A program made the translations under genes and the position numbers. Below the pieces are notes generated by a model. That model saw only the letters and a list, made by a program, of their open reading frames with translations, searched no databases and was not told the origin of the DNA. From Endozoicomonas sp. OPT23 (GTDB lineage: Bacteria; Pseudomonadota; Gammaproteobacteria; Pseudomonadales; Endozoicomonadaceae), in assembly GCF_009653635.1 (NCBI RefSeq), contig NZ_PPFD01000009.1, forward strand, positions 1 to 64,000: DNA of 64,000 nucleotides. Direction: 5' to 3'. Positions 15,251 to 62,853 of the stretch are shown piece by piece; the first letter of the stretch is position 1; the number at the start of each line of letters is the position of its first letter.

Positions 15251-15354
15251 GCTCGGGGTCTTGTGTGGTTCTGCCAAAGGACAAGGATGTCCGATGAGCG
15301 ACTCGATGCAGGAAAGCATCGGTGGAGCGGGCAGAGCCACACAAGATTCCGAGC
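15251..15354 (+). repeat. Three-way-junction element, copy A (possible structured RNA)
   Basis: The outer arms 15251-15275 and 15330-15354 pair over 25 positions; the only three non-Watson-Crick pairs are G.T wobbles on the + strand. Inside are two hairpins: GGACA-AGGA-TGTCC (15279-15292) and CGATGC-AGGAAA-GCATCG (15304-15321). The junction strands are CAAA, GATGAGCGACT and GTGGAGC. The first hairpin contains ACAAGGATGT, the preferred CsrA/RsmA-binding sequence. The element lies between hcp and hcr on the strand opposite to them. A second copy with different stem sequence is at 62763-62853. Confidence 0.8.
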
Positions 15355-15367
15355 GGGTTGAAGCGTA

Positions 15368-17023
15368 TCAGGCAGCAGTGTTCAAGATTGCGCCAAGATC
15401 CTGTTCAACCGTTGTCGTCAGCTTGAGATCAAACTGTTCAGTCAGCACACCCAGCAGATTCTCGGTCAGGAACGCTGGCGGAGTTGGGCCAGTGTGAATG
15501 TTCTTGATACCCAGAGACAGCAGGGTCAGCAAGATAACAATCGCCTTCTGCTCAAACCAGGACAGAATCAAAGACAATGGCAGATCATTCACACCACACT
15601 CAAACGCTTCAGCCAGAGCCAGAGCCAGCTGAATGGCAGAGTAAGCATCGTTGCACTGACCTACGTCCAGCAAACGAGGAATGCCGTTAATATCGCCAAA
15701 CTCCAGCTTGTTGAACTTGAACTTACCGCAAGCCAGCGTCAGGATCAGGCTGTCCTGTGGCACAGATTCAGCAAATTCCTTGAAGTAAGCACGTTCAGAC
15801 TTATCACCGTCACAACCACCGATCAGGAAGAAGTGCTTGATATCGCCAGCCTTAACACCTTCGATAACCGCTGGAGCCGCTTCCATCAAAGCATTACGGG
15901 CAAAACCGGTAAGGATAGTGTGTGGAATTTCGTCAAACTCAAAGCCTGGCAGTTCCAGTGCCTTGTTGATCAGAGCGTCAAAGCTTTCACCTTCCATGTG
16001 TTGAACACCAGGCCAGCCAACAATGTTACGGGTGAAAATACGGTCGCCGTAATCACCAACATTAGGATCGATGATGCAGTTAGAGGTCATCAGGATAGCG
16101 CCTGGGAATTCAGCAAATTCATGCTGCTGGTTCTGCCATGCGGAACCGTAGTTGCCGACCAGATGCTTGTGTTTTCTCAATTCAGGGTAACCGTGCGCAG
16201 GCAGCATCTCACCGTGGGTGTAGATGTTAATGCCTTTATCTTCAGTCTGTTCCAGCAGGTGTTGTAGATCGATCAGGTCGTGACCGGACACCAGAATCGC
16301 CTTACCTTTAACCGGCTTAACGTTTACCTGTGCAGGCGCAGGATGGCCGAACGCAGTCGTCTGACCACGGTCCAGCATCTCCATAATCTTGTAGTTCAGC
16401 TGACCAATCTGCATGGAACATTCCAGCAGCGCATTGATCTCAACAGAATCAGTGGCCAGCCAGGACATGATCTGGTGGAATTCAGCGTAAATGGCTTCAT
16501 CGGTCTCATGCAGGATGCGAGCGTGTTCCATGTACGCTGCAGCACCTTTCAAACCGTACAAGCAAAGCAAACGCAGACCAACAACGTCTTCACCGGCTTC
16601 TTCCTTACCGCGGTTAGGCAGCATGACCGGGGCCTGTTGCAGCATACCGGCCATATCTTCAGACAATTCGAAAGTAGCGGCAGGCGTGGCATCGGAGAAG
16701 TCGATACCTTTTTCAGCACAGGCTTTTTTCAGCAGATCACGGGCAGCGTTGGCTTCACGGATGAAAGCAACAATGCGGTCATTATCAAAGTTTACGTTGG
16801 TCAGTGTGGCGAAGAATGCACGCGGTACCAGCGCATCAACAGCGTCGTTTTTAATGCCCAGTTCACGAGCCTTGGTCGCATACCAGGAAACGCCCTGCAG
16901 CATGTAAATCAGAACGTCTTGCAGGTCAGAGGTCTCGGACGTTTTACCGCACATACCCTGAGCGTAGGAACAACCGTTACCGGCAGGAGTTCGAATGGTT
17001 TGCTCGCACTGAACACAGAACAT
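15368..17023 (-). CDS. hcp: Hybrid cluster protein Hcp (NO reductase / hydroxylamine reductase)
   Basis: The 551-residue protein begins [18 protein letters not shown], with the N-terminal CX2CX11CX6C cluster ligands of the enterobacterial-type enzyme. The hybrid-cluster part carries [11 protein letters not shown], the Cys in [30 protein letters not shown] and LDVGQCND, all cluster ligands or neighbours known from the family. Hcp is now regarded as a high-affinity NO reductase of anaerobic cells and also reduces hydroxylamine. With hcr it forms the expected two-gene operon. An NsrR-like box lies 18-40 bp upstream of the start codon. Confidence 0.97.
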
Positions 17024-17040
17024 TAATAACGCCTCATCTA

Positions 17041-17063
17041 AACATATATTTTTTTTGCATCTT
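17041..17063. promoter_or_regulatory. NsrR-like operator upstream of hcp
   Basis: The 23-bp sequence fits the NsrR palindrome AAGATGCATTT-N-AAATGCATCTT at 16 positions; the hcp-proximal half is degenerate, but TGCATCTT is perfect. A further half site AAGATGCAA is at 17158-17166. NsrR represses hcp in many gammaproteobacteria until NO damages its iron-sulfur cluster. Confidence 0.65.
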
Positions 17064-17240
17064 ATTTTTCGTACTTATTGGTCAGGCGTCCCCCTGACTC
17101 AATCTGAAAATGGTGATGCAGTTTGTACTGCCGCCATTCTTATTCAGAAGCACTTAAAGATGCAATTTTTTTACGTGTTTAATTATGCGACATACGACAT
17201 AGATCAAAAAATACGTAGATATGCTCAGATGAGCGATACT

Positions 17241-17332
17241 ACGTACCCAGACATACGAATTCATAAGCTGCTTGCCTGCCGCAGGCGGGCAAGCAGCCAT
17301 TTAATATTCGATTACGTGTGTCTACACACTTA
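17241..17332 (-). repeat. Dispersed repeat R1, copy 2
   Basis: On the - strand it reads TAAGTGTGTAGACACACG, TAATCGAATATTAAATGGCT, then a hairpin GCTGCTTGCCCGCC / GGCAGGCAAGCAGC, then TTATGAATTCGTATGTC and TGGGTACG. The ends match copy 1 nearly base for base, while the central hairpin is entirely different in its lower stem yet still pairs. It lies between hcp and a LysR gene. Confidence 0.85.
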
Positions 17333-17370
17333 CTTTTAGAGAACCTGCGAATAACAAATGTCAAATCCTT

Positions 17371-18261
17371 TCATGTTACTGCTTTACAGGTGTTTCTCAA
17401 TCGAGCTTGCACATAAGCCTGACACGATTGAATAAAAGCTTTCAGCACCGGATTTCCTTTATTATCTGGATGATAGAGCAGCCAGAGTTGCGTAGTGTCA
17501 CTCACCGTGTAGCTATCGTGTATATCCATACCTCTCACCACCGTATCGAGCCTCGGAACTACTCCGACCCCATAACCACCTTGCAAAGCATTCACCAGAG
17601 CGGCCATTGAATCAAAAGCAGTGCATGTATCATTTTTTTGCTTATGATTCTCCACCCACTGTCGACTCCAGTGCCTGTTGATAGCCCCTCCAGGAATCAG
17701 CCATTTTTGTCTGTCGCCCGATGATTTATAGTGTTTTGCACTGACAACCGCATATTGCAACTCTGCCAGGTAGTGGCCAATCATAGCATTCGGGGGCTGA
17801 TTGGTTGGACGCAATGCCAAATCTATGTTGCGCTCCCACAACTGTGCCTCATCGTTTCGCGTGTCGAAACTCAAGGAAACTTCCGGATATTCTGCACTGA
17901 AAACCTCTGAACAGGGCAGCAGCAGGTATTGAACCAGCAAATCTGTGGATGTAATCGTCAATTGACCACGAAGGGTCTGCTCATTATTCCGAAGTATCTG
18001 ATTGGCTATGCCGATCGCCTCCAGAATATGAGCCCCCTGTTGTGCAAGCATCCTTGTTACAGGCAATGCTGAATAACCATTTTGCGATCGATTAAAGAGA
18101 ACTATTCCCTGTTGCTTCTCAATACGTTTGATCGAACGAAAAACGGATGAGACATCCCGCCCTAATAGTCGACCTGCTGCTTCCAGAGTACCTGCTTCCA
18201 CCATGGCGTGAATAACAAGGAGATCTCTGCTTTCAAGCTCAATAGGCATTTGTGCATTCAT
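17371..18261 (-). CDS. LysR-family transcriptional regulator
   Basis: The N-terminal helix-turn-helix reads VEAGTLEAAGRLLGRDVSSV, then SIKRIEKQQGIVLFNRS, the classic LysR layout; the C-terminal part is the substrate-binding domain. I start at the ATG at 18261; the frame also opens at a GTG 24 bp upstream. The HTH is less standard than usual. It is divergent from the periplasmic cupin gene at 18346, which is a likely target since LysR proteins often control a divergent neighbour. The inducer is unknown. Confidence 0.85.
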   Translation of the reverse strand: MNAQMPIELESRDLLVIHAMVEAGTLEAAGRLLGRDVSSVFRSIKRIEKQQGIVLFNRSQNGYSALPVTRMLAQQGAHILEAIGIANQILRNNEQTLRGQLTITSTDLLVQYLLLPCSEVFSAEYPEVSLSFDTRNDEAQLWERNIDLALRPTNQPPNAMIGHYLAELQYAVVSAKHYKSSGDRQKWLIPGGAINRHWSRQWVENHKQKNDTCTAFDSMAALVNALQGGYGVGVVPRLDTVVRGMDIHDSYTVSDTTQLWLLYHPDNKGNPVLKAFIQSCQAYVQARLRNTCKAVT

Positions 18262-18345
18262 AGATTTCACGCCTGCAAATTCCACAAACTGTCATTATCG
18301 ATAAACTGTCTAACACGGATCACTATTAACAACCAGGAAGATTCC

Positions 18346-18777
18346 ATGAAACTGAATAAACTCTGTCAGGCACTGATTACCTCATCCATTCTGACCACAA
18401 CCACAGCTATGGCGCACACAACTGAAAACAAGATGCTCGCAACTAATGAAATTCAATGGCAGCAACTGGGTGAAACACCCATTGAATACGCTGTCATATG
18501 GGGAGACCGTGAAGCTGGTGCCAATGGTACATACTTAAAACTGCCTTCAGGTTTTGAAGTGGGAGTCCATGGCCATTCACACAATTACAACGGAGTCACT
18601 ATTCAGGGCGTCTGGGAGCATAAGTTTGAGGGCGAGTGGAAACAACTTCCTCCAGGGTCATACGTTTCTCAAAAGGGGGGCGAATTACACAATGACCGCT
18701 GCACCAGTAAAGAAGACTGCATACTACTGATCCAGCAAGACGACCACTCCGATGCATTTTTTCCACCAGCAAAATAA
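18346..18777 (+). CDS. Periplasmic cupin-domain protein (DUF4437-like)
   Basis: The ATG at 18346 follows a GGAAG ribosome-binding site and opens a signal peptide (LITSSILTTTTAMAHT, cleavage after AMA). The mature protein of about 120 residues is a small beta-barrel with cupin marks: YLKLPSGFEVGVHGHSHNYN, with closely spaced metal-binding histidines, and GSYVSQKGGELHND for the second cupin motif. Related exported cupins are often annotated DUF4437. Function is not established; binding of a small molecule or metal is likely. Two Cys (RCTSKEDC) could form a disulfide. A hairpin terminator follows. Confidence 0.75.
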   Translation: MKLNKLCQALITSSILTTTTAMAHTTENKMLATNEIQWQQLGETPIEYAVIWGDREAGANGTYLKLPSGFEVGVHGHSHNYNGVTIQGVWEHKFEGEWKQLPPGSYVSQKGGELHNDRCTSKEDCILLIQQDDHSDAFFPPAK

Positions 18778-18789
18778 TACTTCTCACGC

Positions 18790-18808
18790 GCTCCGGTGAA
18801 TTCGGAGC
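18790..18808 (+). terminator. Hairpin after the cupin gene
   Basis: GCTCCG (18790-18795) pairs with CGGAGC (18803-18808). There is no long T-run; it lies between convergent genes. Confidence 0.45.
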
Positions 18809-18836
18809 ACTGCTTCTCATATTCAATTGCCTGCGC

Positions 18837-19184
18837 CTATATACTTAACCCTGCATTGCCTGCAAACACTTCACTGTAGCGGATTACAACGTTCTGTGAA
18901 TCAATGAGTTGAAGCAATGACTGACTTCGCGGGTCAGCCAGAAATACTTTCAAGCCGCTTTCGGCGGCTTCACGATCGCGCCAGAAAACAGTTTCTGCCC
19001 AGAAGCCATCATCCTGCTGTGAACAGTAGCGGTGAATAAAGCCATCAATGTTATTAAGTACCGCATCGGTTATTTCAAGCGCATTGATAATCTCATAGTC
19101 CTGAATATCAGGGAGCGCTGGAAAAGTAACATATTCAATAATACCTGGCCTGGTCAAATCTGAAGCGTTGATATTGGATTTCAT
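18837..19184 (-). CDS. ABM-like (dimeric alpha-beta barrel) conserved protein
   Basis: The ATG at 19184 follows AGAGG and gives a 115-residue protein; the frame is open further upstream but that would overlap azoR. The pattern YVTFPALPDIQ, then IDGFIHRYCSQQDDGFWAETVFWRDREAAESGL fits the antibiotic-biosynthesis-monooxygenase-like fold, where a short enzyme or binding protein forms dimers. The Trp-Arg-Asp centre is typical. It lies 43 bp downstream of azoR, so the two are probably co-transcribed. Confidence 0.65.
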   Translation of the reverse strand: MKSNINASDLTRPGIIEYVTFPALPDIQDYEIINALEITDAVLNNIDGFIHRYCSQQDDGFWAETVFWRDREAAESGLKVFLADPRSQSLLQLIDSQNVVIRYSEVFAGNAGLSI

Positions 19185-19227
19185 TTGAATAAAGCCTCTT
19201 CTACTTAATGATTCGATGGGTAACAAG

Positions 19228-19866
19228 TTAAGAACGCAGTTTGATGCCCAGTTCTTTTGCTTTAAGCCGTGCAGCATTCAGAGAATACTGATGGCGATCA
19301 TCCGAAAATTCCTGATATTCCACATGAACTTCATGGGTTCTGGAAGCACCCAGATAACGTGACAGGGTTTGAATATGATTGTCCAAATGATTATGCATAG
19401 CGCGAGGACCTTCCGGACTAAAGCCAAACTCACCTTTAGACGTTAGCAAGACAAGTGTTTTATCATTAAGGAGAGGCTCTATCGGATAATCTCCTCGACT
19501 CAGATCGAATGAAAATGTTTTATCAACACGAATGATTTGATCAAACCAGGCCTTTAATGCAGCGGGCATACCATAGTTATACATAGGGGCACCAATAACA
19601 ATGATACTGGCATTCTTGAGCTCAGCGATAAGCCTTTCAGACTCGGCCAACCTGGCTTGCTGACTGGCAGATCGTTGTTGTGGCGAGGTAAATACTGCAT
19701 CAATCCATTGCTCATCAATAAATCCAGGAGGTTGCGCTCCCACATCACGATGAACTACATCGGTCTCTATATTGTCAGTCAGTTCGTTCAGCAGTGTATC
19801 AATAAGCTGACGTGTAATAGAACGCTGCTGTCGTGCACTACTGTTAATCACCAGAACGGAATTCAT
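19228..19866 (-). CDS. azoR: FMN-dependent NADH:quinone oxidoreductase / azoreductase
   Basis: The 212-residue flavodoxin-like protein has the AzoR phosphate-binding start VLVINSSARQQRSITRQL, the FMN-contacting segment GAPMYNYGMPAALKAWFDQI at residues 94-113, and LLTSKGEFGFSPEG. The enzyme transfers two electrons from NADH to quinones or azo compounds, protecting against thiol stress. It is followed by the ABM-like gene and preceded on the same strand by a LysR regulator. Confidence 0.9.
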   Translation of the reverse strand: MNSVLVINSSARQQRSITRQLIDTLLNELTDNIETDVVHRDVGAQPPGFIDEQWIDAVFTSPQQRSASQQARLAESERLIAELKNASIIVIGAPMYNYGMPAALKAWFDQIIRVDKTFSFDLSRGDYPIEPLLNDKTLVLLTSKGEFGFSPEGPRAMHNHLDNHIQTLSRYLGASRTHEVHVEYQEFSDDRHQYSLNAARLKAKELGIKLRS

Positions 19867-19973
19867 GAACCCACCTCATTACGGAATCATGTTCCATTCT
19901 ATTTATCCATTGTCATCTGGCAGCTGAATATTACTCATCATAGATGAGTTTAATTACTTTATAAATAATCCAG

Positions 19974-20873
19974 TCACAGCGGCACTACTGCCGAATCTGT
20001 TTGCAGCCAATGGATAAAATCGATCACCTTTCTGTGCTGAATACTCTCGGGTCGATAGATTATCTGATATCGACTACCGTCGACCTGAACCTCTGGCTGA
20101 TAGGCTTTCAATAAGTTACGGGTCAGAAAATCCTCCACCAGAACCGAGCTGGCCAGAGCTATACCCTTGCCTGCTACAGCAGCCTGCAACACATGTGACT
20201 CTTCTTTAAAACGAATAATATTATTAGTCATCCATTCGAACCGGGCTTTCTGTATCCAACTTGTCCAGTTGACTTCCTGAAGCACATTTTGCTGCCATTC
20301 CGTTTCAATGAGCGGCAATTCCCTAATCGCACTTCTGTCGAGAACCATCGAGGATGCCACGTAAGCACCAAATGTTTCCTGCAAAAAACATTCTCCGACA
20401 CCGCCCCTGGGCGTTTCACTTCCGTAACGTATAACCAGATCAATATGTCGGTTTCGCTGTAAATCCAGCGACTGAGTACTGGTATCGAGCTGCACACTGT
20501 ATTGTGGATATTTCTCATAAAAATCAATCAGTCGCGGCACCAGAAACAACGTAGCAAAGGAGGGTGTTGTCGACAGCGTGATGACCTGATTCCGAGCAGT
20601 AACAACATCAATAGCTTCGCTGATGTCACCAAAGGCACGGGTGATCGTGGGGGATAACGCCTTACCTGCGTCTGTCAGATAAATACTGCGTATACGACGG
20701 GTGAATAAAGCTGTCTGAAGCTGCTCTTCCAGGGTTTTAATCTGGTGTGAAATAGCTGTTGGTGTGACGTGAAGTTCTTCAGCAGCTGCTTTGAAACTGC
20801 CTAGCCTGGCAGCAGCTTCAAAAGCCTTCAACGCAACGAGAGAAGGAAGACGAGGACTCATAACAAAATCCAT
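19974..20873 (-). CDS. LysR-family regulator (GcvA-like)
   Basis: The 299-residue protein has the GcvA-type start PSLVALKAFEAAARLGSFKA, then AAEELHVTPTAISHQIKTLE, and a LysR substrate-binding domain (LSTTPSFATLFLVPRLIDF). The true start could be Met5. It is upstream of azoR on the same strand (107 bp gap) and divergent from the SGNH hydrolase gene, so either or both may be its targets. Confidence 0.9.
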   Translation of the reverse strand: MDFVMSPRLPSLVALKAFEAAARLGSFKAAAEELHVTPTAISHQIKTLEEQLQTALFTRRIRSIYLTDAGKALSPTITRAFGDISEAIDVVTARNQVITLSTTPSFATLFLVPRLIDFYEKYPQYSVQLDTSTQSLDLQRNRHIDLVIRYGSETPRGGVGECFLQETFGAYVASSMVLDRSAIRELPLIETEWQQNVLQEVNWTSWIQKARFEWMTNNIIRFKEESHVLQAAVAGKGIALASSVLVEDFLTRNLLKAYQPEVQVDGSRYQIIYRPESIQHRKVIDFIHWLQTDSAVVPL

Positions 20874-20962
20874 AAAGATGAATAGATGTTACTTATAAAT
20901 GAGAGAAATTCTTTTGTAAACAAGCTGACAGCTCATCACAATACAGCCTGAAATTAACTGAG

Positions 20963-21811
20963 GTGAAGACGTTGACTCGTACCATTCGAAAACATGAAAG
21001 TGTCCATGTATTTGTGTCGTTTATTACGATCCTTATTTTCAGTATTTTTACGACACCACTTTATGCGAACACTACTTCAGACAGAGAACGTACTGATCGG
21101 CAATGCTGGCACGAAAACAAGCAACAGGTACTAGTGTTTGGTGATTCAAACACATGGGGCTGGAAACCTGTCGCCGAAGGCTTTCCGGCACGACGGTATG
21201 CAAAATATGAGCGATGGACCAGCATTCTGGAGTCGACGCTCAACAACCAGCACCCTGCTTCTGTTATCGCTGACGGGTTAATCAGTCGCACTATTAATCT
21301 GGATGCAGGGCAGGCCGTCGGTGAGTTAACGAAAGAAGCATTCAACGGCTCCCGGGATATAGTCAACTCAATGGCAAAGCATGCACCACTGGACTGGATT
21401 GTTATCATGCTCGGAACCAATGACCTTGCTCCATCATACGAACGTTCTCCCAAGGAAATAGCTGAGGCAGCCTTCGCTTTGGCAGAAAAAGCACGCCAAC
21501 AAGACAACATTTTGTATTCAGCCTATCGTGCTCCCCAAGTGCTGCTGATTGTTCCGCCACCTATTGGTTCAACAGTGAATACACCGCTGCACGGTATATT
21601 CGATGGTGCCCAGACACCATCGAAGCAAATAGCAGCTGCTTTTCTAAAAGAAGCTGATAAACATACAGATATTCACTTATTGGATGCAGGTCAGATTATT
21701 ACCACTGATGGTATTGATGGTGTGCACTTCTCACGACAGAACCATATTACTTTAGGTAAAGCTGTCGCTCGCTTCCTGCTTCGTAAAGATTCGAGTTGCA
21801 ACCAAGCCTGA
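20963..21811 (+). CDS. Secreted SGNH/GDSL hydrolase (arylesterase-like)
   Basis: A GTG at 20963 or the TTG at 20972 (with AGGTG upstream) starts the gene; the hydrophobic segment VSFITILIFSIFTTPLYA serves as signal peptide or anchor. SGNH blocks are present: block I VLVFGDSNTWGW with the nucleophilic Ser, block II Gly in VIADGLISRT, block III VIMLGTNDLAP, and block V DGVHFSRQNH with the catalytic Asp and His. These enzymes hydrolyse esters, from aryl esters to lipid or glycan acetyl groups. Length (282) is normal for the exported type. Confidence 0.88.
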   Translation: MKTLTRTIRKHESVHVFVSFITILIFSIFTTPLYANTTSDRERTDRQCWHENKQQVLVFGDSNTWGWKPVAEGFPARRYAKYERWTSILESTLNNQHPASVIADGLISRTINLDAGQAVGELTKEAFNGSRDIVNSMAKHAPLDWIVIMLGTNDLAPSYERSPKEIAEAAFALAEKARQQDNILYSAYRAPQVLLIVPPPIGSTVNTPLHGIFDGAQTPSKQIAAAFLKEADKHTDIHLLDAGQIITTDGIDGVHFSRQNHITLGKAVARFLLRKDSSCNQA

Positions 21812-21838
21812 TTCTTAATGAAGATGTTATAACCTCAA

Positions 21839-21902
21839 AGCCTGCGAATGCAGGCAGCACTCTCCTCAGAGAGGCAGAAAACAACGGCTGTTTCTTCTGT
21901 TC
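21839..21902. terminator. Three consecutive short hairpins between convergent genes
   Basis: GCCTGCGAATGCAGGC, CTCTCCTCAGAGAG and AGAAAACAACGGCTGTTTCT each fold on themselves. Together they fill the gap between the hydrolase and the DUF1971 gene; no classic T-run is present. Confidence 0.4.
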
Positions 21903-21927
21903 TGCGCATTAATACAATGAATCGACA

Positions 21928-22263
21928 TTATTTTGTATAAAACATTGGCTCGTCTTTCTTGTCAGTAGATGACCAGAAGTTAATATTGAACTGGGCATCG
22001 TCACTGATTTCAATACGGTGCCAGTATTGAGGTGGGCTGGTAGCGAACTGTCCCGCATTAATAACTACCGTCACCTCCGGCTCCAGGGTTTCACTGTCGG
22101 GAAAACCAAAGTAAGTAACAGTACCTTCCATCACGCAGAGCTGGCCGAATACGCCTTCGGCCGTATTGTGATGAGTGAGCAGTGCATCCGGCACATTACC
22201 CTTGGTAAAAAAGGGTGTGGAACGCTGAATGGTCCAGTCTGCAGGAATACGGAAATGGCTCAT
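21928..22263 (-). CDS. DUF1971 (TehB N-domain-like) cupin protein
   Basis: The 111-residue protein fits the DUF1971 cupin found alone or fused to TehB-type methyltransferases: TIQRSTPFFTKGNVPDALLT, HHNTAEGVFGQLCVMEGTVT, and QFATSPPQYWHRIE near residue 75. Here it follows a SAM methyltransferase gene by 54 bp on the same strand, so the two-domain arrangement appears as two genes. It ends the operon that begins with norV, suggesting nitric-oxide-inducible expression. Confidence 0.8.
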   Translation of the reverse strand: MSHFRIPADWTIQRSTPFFTKGNVPDALLTHHNTAEGVFGQLCVMEGTVTYFGFPDSETLEPEVTVVINAGQFATSPPQYWHRIEISDDAQFNINFWSSTDKKDEPMFYTK

Positions 22264-22317
22264 ACGGTTAACCTCCGGGCGATGAACGCCCTTAATAAAT
22301 ACTGAACGATTAATGCT

Positions 22318-22872
22318 CTATGCTTGACGAAACTTTAAAACATAGTGGGATGGACAGGACTCTCTGTCGCTGAATGTAATCTCGAATCCGGCCTGTCGAA
22401 CCTCACTGACCACTCGATCAAAACCGACTCTGGCGTGCTCACTGTCAAGGTCGACAAAGACAAACTCGGTGTCTTTGTCAGCTTGTTGATAAAGATGGTT
22501 CAAGAATAGATCTCGCTGTTCAATAAAGCGGTAAACATTTGCCAGAAATACAACATCAACAGCATCCGGCAGGCAGGGTTTCAGGGCATCTGTCAGCCTG
22601 GCTTCAACATTTCCCTTACACTCAGCTTCAAATCGCTGCACCATATGACTAACCATATTGGGTTCGCAGTCCAGCGCATAAACCTTGTCTGCGGTTTCTG
22701 CAAACAGGCTACTAAAATACCCGGTGCCAGCACCCAGATCCGCAATAACGGTGTCGTTTTTCAATGCCAGACAGTTAAGAATGTAGTTGGTGTTCTGCCA
22801 TTCCTGCCGAGTCTCTGAATCAAAGATCTCCGTGAGCCTTTCCGGCTCTGCAAAGCTGATACGTTGCTGCAT
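22318..22872 (-). CDS. Class I SAM-dependent methyltransferase in the nor operon
   Basis: The 184-residue protein has motif I VIADLGAGTGYFSSLF (residues about 44-59), an acidic residue at the end of strand 2 (VYALDCEPNM), and motif IV VDVVFLANVYRF. It starts 3 bp after norW ends, so it is translationally linked to norVW. The N-terminal segment RLTEIFDSETRQEWQNTNYI resembles methyltransferases annotated for arsenite or thiol substrates; the substrate is not known. Its position behind the NorR-activated promoter is the main clue, implying a role in repair or detoxification during NO stress. Confidence 0.85.
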   Translation of the reverse strand: MQQRISFAEPERLTEIFDSETRQEWQNTNYILNCLALKNDTVIADLGAGTGYFSSLFAETADKVYALDCEPNMVSHMVQRFEAECKGNVEARLTDALKPCLPDAVDVVFLANVYRFIEQRDLFLNHLYQQADKDTEFVFVDLDSEHARVGFDRVVSEVRQAGFEITFSDRESCPSHYVLKFRQA

Positions 22873-22875
22873 GGC

Positions 22876-25595: not shown

Positions 25596-25645
25596 AATAG
25601 TGGCTCCGCTCGAAAGCATTAGAAATCAGAATATGTTTTCTATAT

Positions 25646-25661
25646 TGCAGGCAGCGTGCCA
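25646..25661 (-). promoter_or_regulatory. Sigma-54 promoter of norV
   Basis: On the - strand TGGCACGCTGCCTGCA matches the -24/-12 consensus TGGCAC-N5-TTGCA with one difference. It lies about 50 bp before the norV start, which fits NorR-dependent activation. Confidence 0.88.
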
Positions 25662-25704
25662 ACTTTTATCTTGTTGATTTTGTTGATATTTTTAGTTTAT
25701 AGGT

Positions 25705-25759: not shown

Positions 25760-25796
25760 TATTTTGTATGCCGTGATAACGAAGTAATCGGAAGCT

Positions 25797-27356: not shown

Positions 27357-27379
27357 CGGTCATCATGACAAGCAGGGGC

Positions 27380-43633: not shown

Positions 43634-43637
43634 AGTA

Positions 43638-50815: not shown

Positions 50816-50818
50816 GGT

Positions 50819-53476: not shown

Positions 53477-53482
53477 AACCGG

Positions 53483-54817: not shown

Positions 54818-55233
54818 ACTTTTCGCCTAATCAATCAACGTTCAGGTCCGGAATAAACCCGCCTCTTCGGTAAGACCGATCACGTACTACAACCCTGACT
54901 GAAGACACACGAAAACGACCCTATCCCCCCCGGAATGAGTCAAGATTGTGTAAACTCAGCCAGGTAAACCGAAACAGATAACAACCACTGAATCACTGCA
55001 AAGAGACTCGACATCAGTTGTCATTCGCATATCAATTTATCCTTGTAATGCCGTAACGACTTACCATAGAAAAATGGTGGCGCAATTATAAAGACAGTCA
55101 GATGGATATGCTATAGGCGTGAGAGGCTGAAACCGGAATAACTGGTACAAAATTACAAATAATCTCACCCGTCCGGACAGCAATTAGCAAAAAGTATTAT
55201 GCAGATTTATTCCTTTTGTCGTATATCGATAAC
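54818..55233. other. Gene-free region upstream of nqrA
   Basis: This 416-bp stretch should hold the nqr promoter on the - strand. I see no convincing -35/-10 pair, no strong operator and no RNA gene. Confidence 0.35.
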
Positions 55234-55277
55234 CCCTTGATAGTTATGATCATAACAAAAAACATAACCATCAAGGG
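55234..55277. terminator. Nested hairpin after tatD
   Basis: CCCTTGATAGTTATG (55234-55248) pairs with CATAACCATCAAGGG (55263-55277) with one mismatch. The perfect palindrome GTTATGATCATAAC (55243-55256) lies within the same stretch, so two alternative folds are possible. It follows the tatD stop codon by 9 bp. Confidence 0.7.
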
Positions 55278-55285
55278 ATAAGGGT

Positions 55286-56065
55286 TTATCGCAGAGCTTT
55301 CGGGAACAAGCGGTAGAAGTTTGCCGTTGTGGCTTCCGCCAGTTCAGCCACAGTTACACCCTTAAGCCCCGCCACACATCGTGCGACATCCGGCAAGTAC
55401 TTGGGTTCATTAGGCTTGCCACGATTTGGGACTGGCGCAAGATAAGGAGAATCCGTTTCAATCAGCAATCGATCTAAGGGAATATTTTTAACCACTTCCC
55501 GAAGCTCACTGGCATTTCTGAAGGTCACGATACCGGAAATAGAGATCATATAGTTCATCTCCATGACTGCCTGAGCCATTTCCAGACTTTCGGTGAAACA
55601 GTGCAGTACGCCTGCTCTATCCAGATCACCATGCTGCCTGATCAGATCAAGCGTATCTTCACGGGCATCACGGGTATGAACAATAATCGGCAGTTGAGAC
55701 TGAGCGGCGGCCTGAAGGTGGATGCGAAAACGCTCCCGCTGTACTTCCTTATTATCAGCGGAGTAATAGTAGTCGAGACCACTTTCACCAATGGCCACCA
55801 CTTTTTCATGCTTTGCATATTTCAGCAGGGTTTCCAGATCAGGTTCAGCAGCGTCTTTCTCCAGCGGGTGAATACCTACTGATGCAAAAACATCTTGATA
55901 TTTCTCGGCAATACCGACCACCTGGTCAGCGTGTTCCAGATCAATGCCAACACAGAGGATTTTGTCAACGCCCGCCTCTTTTGCGGCAGCTACCGCCTTA
56001 TCCAGATCACCATCATAGGTATCCAGTTTAAGGCGGTCGATATGGCAGTGAGAATCTATCAACAT
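55286..56065 (-). CDS. tatD: TatD-family metal-dependent hydrolase/DNase
   Basis: The ATG at 56065 opens MLIDSHCHIDRLKL with the HxH metal site. Later ASVGIHPLEKD, AIGESGLDYYYS, PIIVHTRDA, LHCFTESLEMA and IETDSPYLAPVPNRGKPNEP give the remaining metal ligands and the C-terminal signature. It is close to YcfH-type members. In related genomes this gene follows pilZ directly; here two extra genes intervene. Confidence 0.95.
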   Translation of the reverse strand: MLIDSHCHIDRLKLDTYDGDLDKAVAAAKEAGVDKILCVGIDLEHADQVVGIAEKYQDVFASVGIHPLEKDAAEPDLETLLKYAKHEKVVAIGESGLDYYYSADNKEVQRERFRIHLQAAAQSQLPIIVHTRDAREDTLDLIRQHGDLDRAGVLHCFTESLEMAQAVMEMNYMISISGIVTFRNASELREVVKNIPLDRLLIETDSPYLAPVPNRGKPNEPKYLPDVARCVAGLKGVTVAELAEATTANFYRLFPKALR

Positions 56066-56275
56066 GAATCCTTCAAATATCAATCAAAAACAAGCGCGAC
56101 ATAATAAAGTATAAACCGCTTAAATTAGAAACCTCATTTTTGACATTAGCCACGCCTCACAGAACAACCGCCTCTGATACCAAACCACCTCTGGTGAAAC
56201 CTTCCTCTCAACCGATAACACTGATGTCACATGGTCCTGCTTAGTATCAAACAATATCTTCAGGAAATACTCGCT

Positions 56276-57541
56276 ATGGCTATCAACCGACGTCAACTCT
56301 TACAAAGCAGTTCTTCATTTTTAGCCTTAGGAGCTCTTGGTTCATTGACAGGATGCCGCACCGGAAACTTCTTCAAGCCTCTCAGGCAAGATACCAATAA
56401 TATTCTCGATTTACCCGAAGGCTTTACATACAAGGTTCTTCAAACCTGCAATGACAGAATGTCTGATGGCTATATGGTACCCGGCAGCCCGGACGGCATG
56501 GCTTCATTTCTGGACGACAAAGGCAATATCGTTCTAATGAGAAACCATGAACTGGATCAGTGGAACTCAAAAAACAGTCCAACATTAACCACTACAACAA
56601 AAGAGCTATTGTATGACCCAGCTAGCTATGGCTGCGTTAGTCGCCTCGTTATTCGCCCGGACAATCTGAAAGTATTAAGCAGCAATCTGGTTTTAGCGGG
56701 TACAACCAGAAACTGCGCCGGCGGTCCATCACCCTGGGGGTGGATCTCCTGTGAAGAAAGTACCGACAAAGGGCATGGTTACGCTTTTCTCTGCGACTAT
56801 CGCGCTTCCAAATTATCTCCTCCTAAAAAATTGACCAATCTGGGGCGATTTTATCGTGAAGCTTTTGCTTTTGATCCTCGTACCGGCATCAGCTATATGA
56901 CCGAAGACAGAGATGACAGCTGCTTTTATAGATACTTGCCAGCAGACAGGTCTACTCCCTTTGGCTTTGGCCAGCTTCAAGCCATGGCCATTTCTGAACA
57001 ACCTAAATTCAGTACCAGCAGAAATATCAGAGCCAATACCAACTACAGTATTCATTGGGTCGATATTGATGAACCCAATTCAATGGATGATACCTGCAGG
57101 CTACAAGGTCAACAAAAAGGCGCAGCTCTTATCCACAGAGGAGAAGGTTTATGGTTTCATAATGGAGTCATATATTTTTCTGCTACAGAGGGCGGACAAC
57201 TAGAAAAAGGACAAATATTTCAACTCACCGATTTAAACAAGCCTACCAACCAATTAAAGCTTGTACATGAATCAGGCAGACTTTCTTCTATCGCATTTCC
57301 TGACAATATTGCCGTCGCCCCATGGGGAGACCTGGTTATCTCAGAAGATGGCCGAAAAACAGACTACATAAGTTTGATTAACAACAAAGGACAGGTTTTC
57401 AATCTGGCCAGAAATAGATTGTCTCATAGCGAAATCACAGGAGTGAATTTTTCCCCCGATGGAAGAATATTATTCCTTAATTTGCAAGAGGACGGCCTGA
57501 CCATAGCCATCACCGGACCTTTCCAGATGCTCACATCCTGA
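56276..57541 (+). CDS. PhoX-family (DUF839) exported lipoprotein phosphatase-like protein
   Basis: The ATG at 56276 follows AGGAAAT. The N-terminus has a twin-arginine motif (INRRQLLQSS), a hydrophobic core and a lipobox (SLTGC), so it may be exported by Tat and lipidated. GSPDGMASFLDDKGNIVLM, LMRNHELD, PSPWGWISCEES and EDGRKTDYISL resemble PhoX phosphatases, in which acidic residues bind calcium and iron. The gene is opposite in orientation to its neighbours and interrupts the conserved pilZ-tatD linkage. Confidence 0.75.
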   Translation: MAINRRQLLQSSSSFLALGALGSLTGCRTGNFFKPLRQDTNNILDLPEGFTYKVLQTCNDRMSDGYMVPGSPDGMASFLDDKGNIVLMRNHELDQWNSKNSPTLTTTTKELLYDPASYGCVSRLVIRPDNLKVLSSNLVLAGTTRNCAGGPSPWGWISCEESTDKGHGYAFLCDYRASKLSPPKKLTNLGRFYREAFAFDPRTGISYMTEDRDDSCFYRYLPADRSTPFGFGQLQAMAISEQPKFSTSRNIRANTNYSIHWVDIDEPNSMDDTCRLQGQQKGAALIHRGEGLWFHNGVIYFSATEGGQLEKGQIFQLTDLNKPTNQLKLVHESGRLSSIAFPDNIAVAPWGDLVISEDGRKTDYISLINNKGQVFNLARNRLSHSEITGVNFSPDGRILFLNLQEDGLTIAITGPFQMLTS

Positions 57542-57599
57542 TTATAAGGCTATGCGACATAAAGCCGCCGCATAGCCTTTAACCTTCTGAAGTTACAAG

Positions 57600-58592
57600 C
57601 TAAACCATAACCCCCAGATCATTTTCACCAACCAAACCCTGTTTCAAAACCTCAACAGGCTCAACCACCTTGCAGAGTTTATCTCGCGCAAACTTCGCCG
57701 TATTCCAGAGAGCAAATCCCGGCCCAACCATGAAGGCTCCTGCCAACGTTAACCCCACCATTGCATTAACAACTGCAAAAGAAGCACTGTTATAGCAACA
57801 ACCATAAAAGGGGGTGCGCAAGTAATCATCTAACAAGGCAGCACCAAAACCACCTCCAACCAACAAGGTCAAACCTCTCACACAGCCTTTGGACATCTCC
57901 TTTACAAACTTGTAAGAAATAGCCAGTGCAGGCGTCAGATTTTCCAGATAGTTATCAAACTTCCTCACTCTGGCTGCTACACGGTCATACAGGCTCAAAG
58001 CCTTAGCCAGAACAGGTCGTTTTTTAGCTCCATCCAGATCAACAACATACCGGACTGAATTAACAACAGCTTTGGTCAGCCCTATCCCTGCCCCTGCTAC
58101 CAAGCCACCTATAACTAGAGGCAGAATTAATGGCTCCATCGCCACACCAACAGTCAGCATACCTGCAACCCACACCCCTAACCCCGTACAACCGCCTTTC
58201 ACAGCTGCAGCCAGTGGGTGCACAGCAAACTGAAATATCGTATGAGCTGTCTTTGCCAGAATTGGATTACGAGTTTCAATATACCGTTTTGCGCAATCTA
58301 CTTTATGGCCCACACGGTCACGTAAAGCAGCAACGCCTTGAGTTAAAACAACAACGCCCTGACGAGTTGTTTCAACTGCCCTTATCAGGTAACAACCAGC
58401 CTTCTTTAATCGCTGTACAGCAACCGGATGCTCACCCGCAAACTTCAACATCTTTCCTTGAGCCTTTTGTTTAAGAGCGGAAACCTTCCGTCGACCCTGC
58501 CTCAACAGCTCACTAGCCGACTGACCGACACCGGCAACGGCTTCAAAAACCTCTCTCGAACTGCCATGCAGAGCAGGTATAGATATAGCCAT
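57600..58592 (-). CDS. Glycine-rich membrane protein of unknown function
   Basis: The ATG at 58592 follows GGGAGG and gives 330 residues. Hydrophobic glycine-rich segments (VWVAGMLTVGVAMEPLILPL, VIGGLVAGAGIGLTKAVV, LTLLVGGGFGAALLDDYL, VVNAMVGLTLAGAFMVGPGF) suggest membrane insertion with flexible helices. The N-terminal third is basic and helical. No known domain. It follows pilZ on the same strand after about 190 bp that include a terminator. Confidence 0.65.
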   Translation of the reverse strand: MAISIPALHGSSREVFEAVAGVGQSASELLRQGRRKVSALKQKAQGKMLKFAGEHPVAVQRLKKAGCYLIRAVETTRQGVVVLTQGVAALRDRVGHKVDCAKRYIETRNPILAKTAHTIFQFAVHPLAAAVKGGCTGLGVWVAGMLTVGVAMEPLILPLVIGGLVAGAGIGLTKAVVNSVRYVVDLDGAKKRPVLAKALSLYDRVAARVRKFDNYLENLTPALAISYKFVKEMSKGCVRGLTLLVGGGFGAALLDDYLRTPFYGCCYNSASFAVVNAMVGLTLAGAFMVGPGFALWNTAKFARDKLCKVVEPVEVLKQGLVGENDLGVMV

Positions 58593-58722
58593 AACACCTA
58601 CCTCCCTGTGTATTTGGGACAGCATAAGGGATAGCATTCAGCGATTGCATGACAGCAGCGTTAGCAGGAATAACAAGATTAATTAAAGGAGGATGACTAT
58701 AGAAAGAGGTCTAACAAAAGAG

Positions 58723-58750
58723 CCAGCCAGAATCGTTCGATACTGGCTGG
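58723..58750 (-). terminator. Hairpin after pilZ
   Basis: CCAGCCAG pairs with CTGGCTGG around a 12-nt loop, 35 bp after the pilZ stop. No clear T-run; likely end of the fabF-pilZ operon. Confidence 0.6.
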
Positions 58751-58784
58751 GAACATAGCTATATGAAATAGCCACATGAAATAA

Positions 58785-59123
58785 CTACATGGTACTGGTT
58801 TCTCTATCCGACTTAAGCGCACCCGCCAGATAGGTTTCAATCTTGGTGCGAACTGTATCGGTCGGATCCGTAAATTGAACACCAATACCCGCCATACGGG
58901 ACGAACCCTGAGGGGTAATCCAGACCACCTTGCCCGGTACCGGCAATTTATCCGCTTCATCCATCAGAGTCAGACGGATAAAGACTTCATCACCCAGATT
59001 GTATTCACGGGAAGTCGGTATAAACAATCCGCCGCCATTAATAAAGGGCATATAGGATGAGTAAAGCGAAGATGAGTCCTTGATTGTCAGTGACAGAATG
59101 CCTGACATCCCTCCTCTGGCCAT
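58785..59123 (-). CDS. pilZ: PilZ-domain protein (type IV pilus assembly factor PilZ)
   Basis: The 112-residue protein has the PilZ arrangement: GMSGILSLTIKDSSSLYSSY, INGGGLFIPTSREYNLGDEV with the N/GGG turn, VPGKVVWITPQ and GIGVQFTDPTD. The Arg-rich c-di-GMP loop is not conserved, as in the stand-alone PilZ that acts in pilus assembly without binding the nucleotide. It is the last gene of the operon with holB. Confidence 0.92.
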   Translation of the reverse strand: MARGGMSGILSLTIKDSSSLYSSYMPFINGGGLFIPTSREYNLGDEVFIRLTLMDEADKLPVPGKVVWITPQGSSRMAGIGVQFTDPTDTVRTKIETYLAGALKSDRETSTM

Positions 59124-59199
59124 ATTAACTCTCCTTTTATTTGGAATTCATAGTTTAAAAGTAAAAACTCAACACTAGAGCGCTATTTTAAAGCTCTTT

Positions 59200-60192
59200 T
59201 TAAAGCACTAACTCTAGGTATCGACTGAAAGCACCTTCCATCAACATCTGACCGTTGAGGTTACCGCCTTCCAGTAAAGACTGACGCTGCTTGATCAACC
59301 AGTCTCTCTCTTCAAGAATAGCCCTGCCAGATACCTTGGTGGCAATATAACGGAGCATCTTGGCCTGATCGGTATTTCGAATATCTGACTCAGCCACACC
59401 CTGCTCGAGCCGGACAGAATCTTCCAGCCAACTGATCAGCCAGGCGAGAGTCAACACCAGATCACTTTTCTGCCAGTCTTTCGCCAGCTCAACCGGAGCC
59501 ATAGCGCCCTTGAACAAACCTTTCACACAATGGGCCAGCTCAAGACGCTTCTCCAGCAGACCTTCATCAGCAAAACGCTTTGCCTCCAGTGGTGCATCCC
59601 CTGTCTGGTCCAGCAACATAGCGACCTGATCAGCATGATTATCGAGATGACGGGTAAGCCACTGCTCTGCAGAAGGCCGATCAGGCGTGCTGAATTTCAA
59701 CTGCTGACAGCGACTCCGAATGGTTGGCAACATATCACCGGCACGGGCACTGACCAGCAGAAACACGGTGTTTTCACCGGGCTCTTCGAGACACTTCAAC
59801 AGAGCATTAGAGGCATTGATGTTCATCGCTTCCGCCGGATTGATCACAATCACTCGGCGACCACCCTGCTGAGCCGTTTTGTGTGCAAACTCATTAAGCT
59901 GGCGAATCCGGTCAATACGAATAGGACGACCGGGATCATCAGGCTCAACAATAGCAATATCCGGATGGGACCCCGCTTTCAGCAGGTCACATTCTTTACA
60001 GAAGCCACAGGCCTGATCATTAACCGGAGACTTACAAAGCAGGTAGGCAGCAAAAGCTTTGGCAAACTGTACCTTGCCAACACCCGGCATTCCGCGAAGC
60101 AGATAAGCATGAGCCAGATTATCGGTCTGATGACAATGTACCAGCTGCTGCCAGAGTGACGATTGCCAAGGTAAAGGCTGCCAGGCCTGCAT
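59200..60192 (-). CDS. holB: DNA polymerase III delta' subunit HolB
   Basis: The 330-residue protein is an AAA+ clamp-loader subunit: YLLRGMPGVGKVQFAKAFAA, the zinc-binding CKSPVNDQACGFCKECDLL (four Cys), SHPDIAIVEPDD, and ASNALLKCLEEPGENTVFLL. The start overlaps the tmk stop at 60192, so the two are translationally coupled. Confidence 0.96.
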   Translation of the reverse strand: MQAWQPLPWQSSLWQQLVHCHQTDNLAHAYLLRGMPGVGKVQFAKAFAAYLLCKSPVNDQACGFCKECDLLKAGSHPDIAIVEPDDPGRPIRIDRIRQLNEFAHKTAQQGGRRVIVINPAEAMNINASNALLKCLEEPGENTVFLLVSARAGDMLPTIRSRCQQLKFSTPDRPSAEQWLTRHLDNHADQVAMLLDQTGDAPLEAKRFADEGLLEKRLELAHCVKGLFKGAMAPVELAKDWQKSDLVLTLAWLISWLEDSVRLEQGVAESDIRNTDQAKMLRYIATKVSGRAILEERDWLIKQRQSLLEGGNLNGQMLMEGAFSRYLELVL

Positions 60193-60833
60193 CAGATGCG
60201 CCCCTTTATTCGAGATGCCAGTCGGCGATCCAGCACCGATAGAATTTGTTGTTTGACATTATCCAGGGATCCTCCGGCATGAATGACTTCGTATTGCTCA
60301 GAAAAGACTTTGGAACGATTCAGATACTCTTCCCGAACCCGCTCAAAGAAATCCATTTTTTCCTGCTCGATACGATCCAGTTCGCCACGACCACGGGCAC
60401 GTGCCATACCGACTTCAGGATCAACATCCATCAAAATCGTCATATCCGGGCGACGACTGCCCTGAACAAGGTTTTCCAGCGTTGAAATCTGCTGTTGATC
60501 CAGACCACGACCACCGCCCTGATAGGCATAGGTTGCATCGGTAAATCGATCGCAAATAACTACCTTACCCGCTGTCATGCCCGGTTCAATATTATGAAAC
60601 AGGTTCTGCGAACGAGCGGCAAACATCAGCAACAACTCTGTGGTGTCCGACAAAGCTTCGCCGTGATGACTTAATAACAGGCTGCGAATATCCTCAGCCA
60701 CCCGTGTACCACCAGGCTCACGAGTTTCAGTGAACTCAATGCCTTTTTCAGACATCCACTCTTTAATCAGGTTAACCGCCGTACTTTTACCGGCACCTTC
60801 ACAACCTTCGATCGTCAGAAAAAAACCTGACAT
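60192..60833 (-). CDS. tmk: Thymidylate kinase
   Basis: The 213-residue protein has the P-loop FLTIEGCEGAGKSTAVNLI, the DRFTDATYAYQGGGRGLDQQ lid-adjacent motif and TREPGGTRVAEDIR. It makes dTDP from dTMP and ATP. It overlaps holB and sits 1 bp from mltG. Confidence 0.98.
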   Translation of the reverse strand: MSGFFLTIEGCEGAGKSTAVNLIKEWMSEKGIEFTETREPGGTRVAEDIRSLLLSHHGEALSDTTELLLMFAARSQNLFHNIEPGMTAGKVVICDRFTDATYAYQGGGRGLDQQQISTLENLVQGSRRPDMTILMDVDPEVGMARARGRGELDRIEQEKMDFFERVREEYLNRSKVFSEQYEVIHAGGSLDNVKQQILSVLDRRLASRIKGRI

Positions 60834-61892
60834 TTACTGATTCTCCACTGGCGCACTCTGAGATGAACGATAGTCAGAGCGACGCTGATAAATCTGATAC
60901 TTCCTCACCGCCCGGTTATGTTCCACCAGACTGTTAGAGAAGTAATGGGTACCGTCCCCTTTGGCAACAAAATAAAGGGACTTGCCATCCTTGGGGTGCA
61001 ATGCTGCATTAATGGCTTCACGACCGACAAAAGCAATAGGCGTCGGTGGCAATCCTTTCAACATATAGGTGTTATAGGGCGTCTTCTCTCTCAGCATACG
61101 CCGAGTCAGGTTACCTTTATAGTTTTCACCCTGACCATAAATTACTGCAGGGTCGGTTTGCAGGCGCATGCCTTTCTGCAGACGACGAACAAATACACCA
61201 GCAATCTCGGGGCGCTCATAAGTAACACCCGTCTCTTTCTCTATAAGCGACGCCATTACCAAAGCTTCATACGCACTTTTATAGGGAAGATCTTTTGCCC
61301 GGTTCTGCCACTCTTCAGCCAACACCTCTTTCATTCGCTCCCTGGAACGAATCAGAATAGAGGTCACAGTATCCCCCGAATGGAAAAAGAACGTGTCAGG
61401 ATAAAACAGACCTTCCGGATTCCCTGCAATACCCAGCTCTTTCAATAAAGTCTGAAAGGCTTTCTGATCAAGAGGCTCACTGAGCTTTTCCTGACTATTG
61501 AGCTCTTCCAAAGCCTCCATGAGAGCCTGACCTTCAATCAACGATACTTCAAAAGAACGAACCTGACCTTCAGTAAACAGCTGCAACAACTCTCGATGCG
61601 TGACACCGGCAGGAATCAGGTACTCACCCGCCTTGATTCTAACCGCTACCTTTTCCAACCGCGCCAACACCTCTAGAAACTCGGGAGTTTCCAGCCAACC
61701 TTCGCTGGACAGGCGAGCAGCTACCCGTTTCATGGAATCACCCGTCTCTATGGTGAACTCCAGACTCTTCACGCCTTCCGGTGCTTCAACTGGCTGATTA
61801 CCAAAATCATCCATCAGCTTCCAGGCCACACCTACGGCAATCGCCAGCAACAGCATGCCAGCAATAGCGGCCAGCAGTATCTTCTTAAGCAT
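60834..61892 (-). CDS. mltG: Endolytic murein transglycosylase MltG
   Basis: The 352-residue protein has one N-terminal transmembrane helix, a LysM-like region, and the YceG catalytic part with ALVMASLIEKETGVTYERP (catalytic Glu), PAVIYGQG, TPYNTYMLKGLPPTPIAFVG and LYFVAKGDGTHYFSN. It cleaves nascent peptidoglycan and limits glycan length. It overlaps pabC by 8 bp. Confidence 0.97.
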   Translation of the reverse strand: MLKKILLAAIAGMLLLAIAVGVAWKLMDDFGNQPVEAPEGVKSLEFTIETGDSMKRVAARLSSEGWLETPEFLEVLARLEKVAVRIKAGEYLIPAGVTHRELLQLFTEGQVRSFEVSLIEGQALMEALEELNSQEKLSEPLDQKAFQTLLKELGIAGNPEGLFYPDTFFFHSGDTVTSILIRSRERMKEVLAEEWQNRAKDLPYKSAYEALVMASLIEKETGVTYERPEIAGVFVRRLQKGMRLQTDPAVIYGQGENYKGNLTRRMLREKTPYNTYMLKGLPPTPIAFVGREAINAALHPKDGKSLYFVAKGDGTHYFSNSLVEHNRAVRKYQIYQRRSDYRSSQSAPVENQ

Positions 61893-62715
61893 TTATTACT
61901 TCCATTAACTTATCCCTGACCCTGCAGGTCACCTCCCCTACAGCCCAGCTTTTATTTCCACAGCCGGTAACAGGCCAGACACCATTAACACTGTTACAGA
62001 CAAACACTTCATCCGCTGCAGCTAATTCAGCAAACGAATAGTCAGCCGTTTCTATTTTCAAACCCCAGAGCGCTGCATTATCCAGAATATATTCCCGACA
62101 AACACCCTTAACACCACAACGGCTCAAATGCGGTGTTTTTAAAATACCATTCTGAACAAAAAACAGATTCGACATGGTACCTTCAATAATGTGACCGTCA
62201 AAATCCTGCACCAACCCTTCAAGGCAACCTGCTTCAGCAGCCCATTCGCGGCGAGCCATTACATTCTCAAGACGATTCAAGTGTTTCATACCCACCAGCA
62301 CTGATTGCCCCAAACGGGTTTCACAAGGAAACAGTCGTATACCTTGTTCTCTCGGAGCAACACCATAATCAGGCAAGTCATGAAAAGACAATATTCGACT
62401 GGAATCACTGCAACCCGCTGGATTATACCCACGACCACCTGAGCCACGGGTAAGAATAACTTTCAGAATACCGCCGGGTTGATTTACAGCCTGCAAAAAA
62501 CCAGCAACCTCAGTCTTCAGCTGTTTAACAGATAAATCTATTCCCAGAAAAGAAGCGCTCTCTGCCAGCCGAGTCAGGTGCAGATCATAAAGCGTTGGTA
62601 AACCATTCACGACTCGAATGGTTTCAAACAAGCCATCCCCATAAGCCAGACCGCGATCTGTTACCGGCAGGACAGACTCATTTACACCATTTACCCAGAC
62701 AGGATAACCAGACAT
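61885..62715 (-). CDS. pabC: Aminodeoxychorismate lyase PabC
   Basis: The 276-residue PLP enzyme of fold type IV shows LPVTDRGLAYGDGLFETIRV, the Schiff-base Lys in MKHLNRLENVMARREWAAEA, the NLFFVQNG loop and VFVCNSVNGVWPVTGCG. It releases pyruvate from 4-amino-4-deoxychorismate to make p-aminobenzoate. The leader upstream is occupied by a structured element. Confidence 0.95.
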   Translation of the reverse strand: MSGYPVWVNGVNESVLPVTDRGLAYGDGLFETIRVVNGLPTLYDLHLTRLAESASFLGIDLSVKQLKTEVAGFLQAVNQPGGILKVILTRGSGGRGYNPAGCSDSSRILSFHDLPDYGVAPREQGIRLFPCETRLGQSVLVGMKHLNRLENVMARREWAAEAGCLEGLVQDFDGHIIEGTMSNLFFVQNGILKTPHLSRCGVKGVCREYILDNAALWGLKIETADYSFAELAAADEVFVCNSVNGVWPVTGCGNKSWAVGEVTCRVRDKLMEVINA

Positions 62716-62762
62716 CAAACCTTCCAGAAATCAGCAGTTTTCGAGAGAACCTGAAGAAGGTT

Positions 62763-62853
62763 GAGACAAGGTTACTCTTTCAAAGACCATGGATGGTCTG
62801 CTAGCGAGTCTGACCACGGAGGGTCAGCCGAGCGGAAAGAGTAATCTTGTTTC
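62763..62853 (+). repeat. Three-way-junction element, copy B (possible structured RNA)
   Basis: The outer arms 62763-62781 and 62835-62853 pair over 19 positions; the two non-Watson-Crick pairs are G.T wobbles on the + strand. Inside are AGACC-ATGGAT-GGTCT (about 62784-62799) and CTGACC-ACGGAG-GGTCAG (62810-62827). The junction strands CAA(A), GCTAGCGAGT and CCGAGCGG resemble those of copy A, while the stems are different sequences that still pair. It lies between fabF and pabC, opposite to their direction. Confidence 0.8.

Follow-up and report, generated by a model that had tools for sequence, protein, structure and literature searches.

Paired GGA hairpins on a dispersed three-way-junction element of Endozoicomonas sp. 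OPT23: a relative of TwoAYGGAY and possible CsrA-binding RNA

The window analyzed here, i.e., the whole stretch of 64,000 nucleotides at positions 1 to 64,000 of contig NZ_PPFD01000009.1 from Endozoicomonas sp. OPT23, contains two copies (A and B) of an element in which a long outer stem closes a three-way junction bearing two hairpins with GGA in their loops. The interval 15251-62853, under which the two had been reported in a first-pass annotation, comprises two separate places and not a single feature; the observation itself is real, and was understated. Every feature of the plan that had been claimed for both copies (stems, CAAA, GGA hairpins, AGCGA and GAGCGG) is present in sequence and folds, as follows.

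15251-15354, + strand: copy A, whole element (outer stem and three-way junction); fold z-score -10.5; covariance model match of 86.2 bits at 15266-15339
15251-15275, + strand: copy A, 5' arm of the outer stem, pairing with 15330-15354 (25 pairs) in the fold; CAAA follows the stem
15279-15292, + strand: copy A, hairpin 1, GGACAAGGATGTCC; sequence and fold
15297-15301, + strand: copy A, junction strand AGCGA, facing GAGCGG with tandem G-A
15304-15321, + strand: copy A, hairpin 2, with the 6-nt loop AGGAAA; sequence and fold
15325-15330, + strand: copy A, GAGCGG, whose final G begins the 3' arm
15330-15354, + strand: copy A, 3' arm of the outer stem; fold
62759-62857, + strand: copy B, whole element; fold z-score -6.2 for 62763-62853; model match of 85.7 bits at 62772-62844
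62785-62798, + strand: copy B, hairpin 1, GACCATGGATGGTC; sequence and fold
62803-62807, + strand: copy B, junction strand AGCGA; sequence
62810-62827, + strand: copy B, hairpin 2, with the loop ACGGAG; sequence and fold
62830-62835, + strand: copy B, GAGCGG; sequence

The outer stem of copy B comprises 19 pairs (62763-62781 with 62835-62853), to which four further pairs out to 62759/62857 can be added by eye. On the + strand the folding energies are -67.5 kcal/mol for copy A and -45.0 kcal/mol for copy B, and none of 200 shuffles reaches such stability; folds of the - strands are also found, though less favorable (-56.3 and -35.4 kcal/mol, z-scores of -9.2 and -5.4). All non-Watson-Crick pairs of the outer stems had been described as G.U on the + strand, and over the 20 positions scored here copy A indeed has three G.U pairs of three and copy B two of two, with no A.C (rows L012 and L013). 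The sequence preferred by CsrA/RsmA that had been ascribed to hairpin 1 of copy A is likewise there: ACAAGGATGT occupies 15281-15290, and the hairpin matches, by eye, 11 of the 12 letters of the consensus RUACARGGAUGU (quoted in PMC7937890).

The element is not limited to these two copies, as the first-pass annotation had it. In the genome (4.94 Mb, 30 contigs) DNA similarity alone leads to five places, and a covariance model (R1) built from six copies finds 25, the weakest at E 1.4e-14 though matches up to E 1 were requested; within the window the only model matches at E <= 10 are copies A and B. The count of 25 may be a lower bound because 150 of 594 first-look candidates were scored. Over 25 distinct rows, in an alignment that was fitted to the structure and hence leans towards it, 97.4% of pair cells are paired, versus 76.5% in shuffles; two-sided changes occur in 17 of 23 pairs, slid registers pair at 30-46%, and the inner hairpins have almost no one-sided intermediates. 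Beyond the model the outer stem continues for some 8-15 more pairs, some with a mismatch. The suggestion of a structured element with covarying stems is thus borne out over many copies carrying compensatory changes. Nor are these the identical copies of an ordinary miniature inverted-repeat transposable element (MITE): the closest two are 86% alike and the mean is 69%, with a likeness of 0.60 in the 5' outer arm, 0.78 in the core and 0.44 in unrelated flanks. In a crude scan of 76 copies (these 25 and 51 from relatives), a CsrA-type A(N)GGA is found in 70 first hairpins and 71 second hairpins, and L027 and L118, missed by the scan of the second hairpin, do by eye contain AGGA, displaced by an insertion. 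Hairpin 1 of these same two copies, one from each of two species and at sites that are not orthologous, is lengthened by insertions of ~16 bases that resemble each other (TTTATGCCCT-GGGTA).

The descent of individual copies was followed in the congener Oceanospirillales bacterium Hp36, an isolate of the sponge Halichondria panacea that a published Endozoicomonas comparison treats as a distant relative at the species level (PMC6955870). Nine of its ten copies are orthologous in place to copies of the present genome, in surroundings of 76-85% identity; only L119 corresponds to none of the 25. The nine orthologous copy pairs offer 207 pair cells, of which 162 are unchanged, 19 have changed two-sidedly and are paired in both genomes, and five have changed on one side and are paired in both; a further 12 one-sided changes leave the cell paired only in the present genome and three leave it paired only in Hp36, the rest being three other two-sided changes and three gapped cells. 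That compensated changes (19) outnumber tolerated one-sided ones (5) fits selection for pairing, and exchange between copies or DNA strand switching could likewise yield compensated changes. In Hp36, copy A is represented by L120, in which GGA of loop 1 and several pairs are gone, and copy B by L115, in which three pairs are broken but the plan is preserved. At the site of copy B, between the pabC-like and fabF-like genes, seven other congeners are by eye without the element (L126-L132), and an eighth (G006) has a different context there. The distribution is patchy overall, with the element in 12 of 57 genomes and absent from six of nine congeners.

Which strand is the one that pairs can be asked of the non-Watson-Crick pairs in 20 outer-stem positions (10 in the model and 10 beyond it). 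Read on the GGA strand, the 25 copies of the present genome have 446 Watson-Crick, 33 G.U, 6 A.C and 15 other pairs and the 51 copies of relatives 840, 74, 29 and 77, respectively, against a G.U:A.C ratio of 136:230 outside the stem. The bias on the + strand reported for copies A and B therefore holds across the genome (33:6), on a strand that is mostly antisense to its neighbors. It is located beyond the model (26:1), and by contig strand it is 21:2 for + and weaker, 12:4 (p 0.08), for -. These ratios favor pairing of the GGA strand as the relevant one; a mutation bias linked to the strand is another possible source of the excess.

At Rfam's own cut-offs nothing is found in the window. Copy A has no Rfam match even at E <= 5, and copy B scores 33.6 bits (E 0.00093, at 62752-62864) on TwoAYGGAY (RF01731), below the gathering cut-off of 43 bits; the whole genome gives five RF01731 matches at E <= 0.1, with a best score of 38.7 bits. 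Two copies of another member of the same bacterial family (G025, in which five of eight given loci matched) score 43.7 and 43.0 bits, and a model built from the present genome only (R2) recovers, at E <= 0.01, 22 of the 35 RF01731 loci given to it (best E 1.9e-13) and misses 13. In one genome (G022) R2 has 28 matches and RF01731 none at E <= 0.001. Because the best score of the present elements falls short of the cut-off while the G025 copies reach it and R2 finds RF01731 loci, the elements are, as judged by these sequence scores, below-cut-off relatives of TwoAYGGAY and not formal members. In alignment the two have in common the outer stem, two hairpins with AYGGAY-like loops of CsrA-site type inside it, and a second hairpin flanked by AG on its 5' side and CGG on its 3' side, and the tandem G-A noted for TwoAYGGAY (PMC4333381) is present here as well; unlike TwoAYGGAY, the present elements have a shorter outer stem, an AGCGA/GAGCGG internal loop and scores below the cut-off. 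A 2010 listing gives TwoAYGGAY as a probable RNA, with a cis-regulatory role improbable, from human gut, gammaproteobacteria and Clostridiales (PMC2864571); Rfam types it as Cis-reg, in clan CL00106, and PMC4333381, where it is still called an RNA of unknown function, already proposes that it binds CsrA. Since structure and CsrA idea are thus published, of the earlier proposal of a new structured RNA or CsrA-sponge-like element the structure and the CsrA-type loops stand, and the novelty does not.

Elements of TwoAYGGAY type behave as dispersed repeats. RF01731 is matched at E <= 0.01 in 62 of 293 genomes of the order (24 pass the cut-off) and at E <= 1e-4 in 18 of 369 genomes of the class (15 over the cut-off). 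In single genomes the matches number at least 69 and at least 104 at E <= 0.001 (scoring covered 129 of the 266 and 430 candidates, respectively), and counts of 41 and 52 are reached at E <= 0.01. In eight copies fetched from one genome (G276; L200-L207) a 121-base stretch is identical throughout, and similarity extends further into the flanks. The high counts and these identical stretches therefore indicate a dispersed repeat that has multiplied recently in some lineages and is older here. Elements at most 700 bases apart stand in the order -,+ (3' ends outward) 33 times of 38, never in the order +,-, and in tandem five times; these counts come from 281 places typed from listings, partly picked by eye, and 13 of the 33 and two of the five are from contigs typed because pairs were noticed. 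The longer listings alone (G276, G219, G126, G153, G582, G675, G313 and G068) have, among the matches listed, at least 20 outward pairs, no +,- and at least three tandem. Convergent genes each with an element at its tail, or a composite inverted unit, would explain the outward pairs. Such high-copy dispersal and gene-end orientation are apparently new for TwoAYGGAY, as no description of either was found in the literature passages searched. In G276 and G219 (L200-L239) the copies are embedded in longer repeats that are nearly identical to one another and have GATCTT-type units to one side of the copy and a stretch of TTTTGCTTACTTTTG type to its other side.

This behavior raises the possibility that the element is mainly DNA, a MITE-like palindrome that spread and settled beside gene ends and whose pairing is kept by DNA-hairpin strand switching or exchange between copies, with RNA playing no part. 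The patchy distribution, the large single-genome counts with the identical G276 stretches, the near absence of one-sided intermediates in the inner hairpins and the inverted order of close pairs would all be accounted for. As to the conserved terminal inverted repeats and target duplication of a MITE, the arms pair but their sequence varies between copies, and the congeners are too distant for a duplication to be read. A palindrome acting as symmetric DNA would not, however, be expected to have G.U in excess of A.C; conservation is seen in the GGA loops and the junction and not in the arms, which vary and offer no conserved ends to a transposase. No plasmid matched with three queries, and of phage sequences 11 viral stretches fit the DNA pattern, where the model gave only two matches, at E 0.14 and 0.93 (an annotated phage collection was not covered). 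We regard this reading as possible but on the unlikely side. The small mobile DNA element suggested earlier is supported only indirectly, by the dispersed and patchy occurrence; no transposase was linked to it, the distribution of Y1 transposases does not follow that of the element, and at least nine of the 25 copies are old, being shared with Hp36.

The repeat is also oriented with respect to genes. Around copies A and B the neighbors, placed like those of the other copies from open reading frame (ORF) calls and Pfam, are the following.

14163-15221, - strand: FAD/NAD-binding reductase with a 2Fe-2S domain, on the 5' side of copy A, its start facing the element; Pfam PF00111, PF00970 and PF00175
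15368-17023, - strand: Prismane/Hcp family gene, on the 3' side of copy A, its stop facing the element; Pfam PF03063, E 1e-160
61885-62718, - strand: class IV aminotransferase gene (pabC-like), on the 5' side of copy B; Pfam PF01063
62872-63951, - strand: beta-ketoacyl synthase gene (fabF-like; ORF as listed), on the 3' side of copy B; Pfam PF00109 and PF02801

Upstream of copy A a weak sigma-70-like site lies on the + strand at 15201-15228 (9 of 12; mean of shuffles 0.2), and on the - strand a weak terminator-like site is present at 62885-62871, between copy B and the fabF-like gene. Over the genome, at 20 of the 25 elements the gene on the 3' side is supported by Pfam and runs toward the element, with its stop close to it (p 0.004). 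Where both neighbors are codirectional the GGA strand is antisense to them at 15 sites and sense at two (of 17; p 0.002). Excluded from this count are L024/L029, an inverted pair with one element in each direction; L025, where the neighbors diverge; L016, which lacks a supported gene on its right; and four convergent sites. With the GGA strand antisense to both codirectional genes, ordinary mRNA would therefore carry the wrong strand.

REP elements can block exonucleases or be cut by RNase III, and a stem acting in the mRNA, i.e., in the opposite strand, as such a 3'-end or intercistronic structure would suit this placement, in which genes run into the 3' side of the element and the strand without GGA lies in the mRNA at 15 of 17 codirectional pairs; the opposite strands of copies A and B also fold. 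On that strand, however, the G.U pairs become A.C mismatches (33 versus 6) and the loops lose GGA, no terminator-like site is found within 15150-15450, and the weak one at copy B precedes the element on the mRNA strand, a further point against. A function in the mRNA strand is for these reasons considered unlikely. A REP/REPIN-type repeat mobilized by a RAYT (Y1) transposase would likewise be palindromic, intergenic and often in inverted pairs. Mobilization by RAYT is rejected as very improbable, since the present genome has 25 elements and no Y1_Tnp match, G009 has 63 matches and no elements, and no association exists over 57 genomes (Fisher p 0.43); a second congener without the element, G007, has 30 Y1 transposase matches. 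The Pseudomonas intergenic repeat families (PMC2718517) are likewise dispersed, palindromic, biased to gene tails and variable in copy number between strains. By description, the present elements differ from them and from REP/REPIN in having a three-way junction, covarying arms and conserved GGA loops and no Y1-transposase association, although R178 or another of those families may itself be TwoAYGGAY. Hairpins are common between genes, but the chance that these are two unrelated ones is negligible given the fold z-scores, the compensated orthologous changes and above all the 25 covarying copies, which already refute it. Insertion into existing terminator hairpins was also rejected, there being no evident T-run and the arms sharing a loose consensus across copies.

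The reading we favor, with moderate confidence, is that RNA of the GGA strand presents pairs of hairpins to CsrA, its many copies serving as weak decoys or docking sites. Such an RNA, if transcribed, would form a long, sequence-variable rod with the three-way junction at its tip, which would display the two A(N)GGA hairpins; a CsrA/RsmA dimer (PMC4333381) might then bind the loop pair, and the copies might jointly titrate or dock enough CsrA for the binding to matter. A CsrA gene is present in the genome, and GGA is located in the hairpin loops as in sponge RNAs. The sponge RNAs CsrB/CsrC and RsmX/Y/Z come from one or a few genes with their own promoter and carry many sites per RNA. The present elements resemble them (they are named in PMC4333381) in having GGA hairpins of CsrA type and differ in having two sites per element, 25 places and no convincing promoter here. 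As a lead only, RsmA, RsmE and RsmI pull-downs in P. putida recovered intergenic regions next to ISPpu8 and a "long palindromic region" (PMC7937890), similar by description in being long palindromic intergenic sequence found with Rsm proteins; the family PF01609 (the ISPpu8 link, in KT2440) has matches in none of three element-bearing genomes of genus g75.

Several observations weigh against CsrA-binding hairpin pairs. Transcription is the weak point, as the strand is mostly antisense, copy A has at most the weak promoter-like site at 15201-15228, none was found at copy B, and no shared promoter is evident across the aligned flanks of the elements. The modeled, inner part of the outer stem has no G.U excess in the present genome (7:5). 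The Hp36 copies are damaged more often (12 cells versus 3), and these orthologues are partly decayed. CsrA itself is found in 37 of 37 genomes searched, with or without the element, and its presence is therefore uninformative.

More broadly, and only tentatively, elements of TwoAYGGAY type may be a family of palindromic repeats that is spreading across the class, with RNA that would carry paired CsrA/Rsm docking sites; with 25 to more than 100 copies at gene tails and the CsrA strand antisense, they could form a distributed sink or recruitment network for a global regulator, tuned by copy number. The dispersed nature of the repeat, its compensating orthologous copies and its gene-end orientation make the function of TwoAYGGAY testable, and if CsrA does bind, this would be a repeat family acting on a global regulator.

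The copies are unevenly spread over the genome, with 12 of 25 on contig C26, clustered at ~184-413 kb (p 5e-6). A replication terminus there, considered in view of an apparent flip in orientation at ~255 kb, was rejected, as GC skew is mostly negative over 400 kb of the 550 kb and no site within nine mismatches of E. coli dif was found in the same 400 kb. Several of the C26 copies adjoin genes for a BphC-like dioxygenase, acetaldehyde dehydrogenase, FAA hydrolase, thiolase, sulfotransferase and CoA-transferase, and the region looks like one of aromatic or steroid catabolism.

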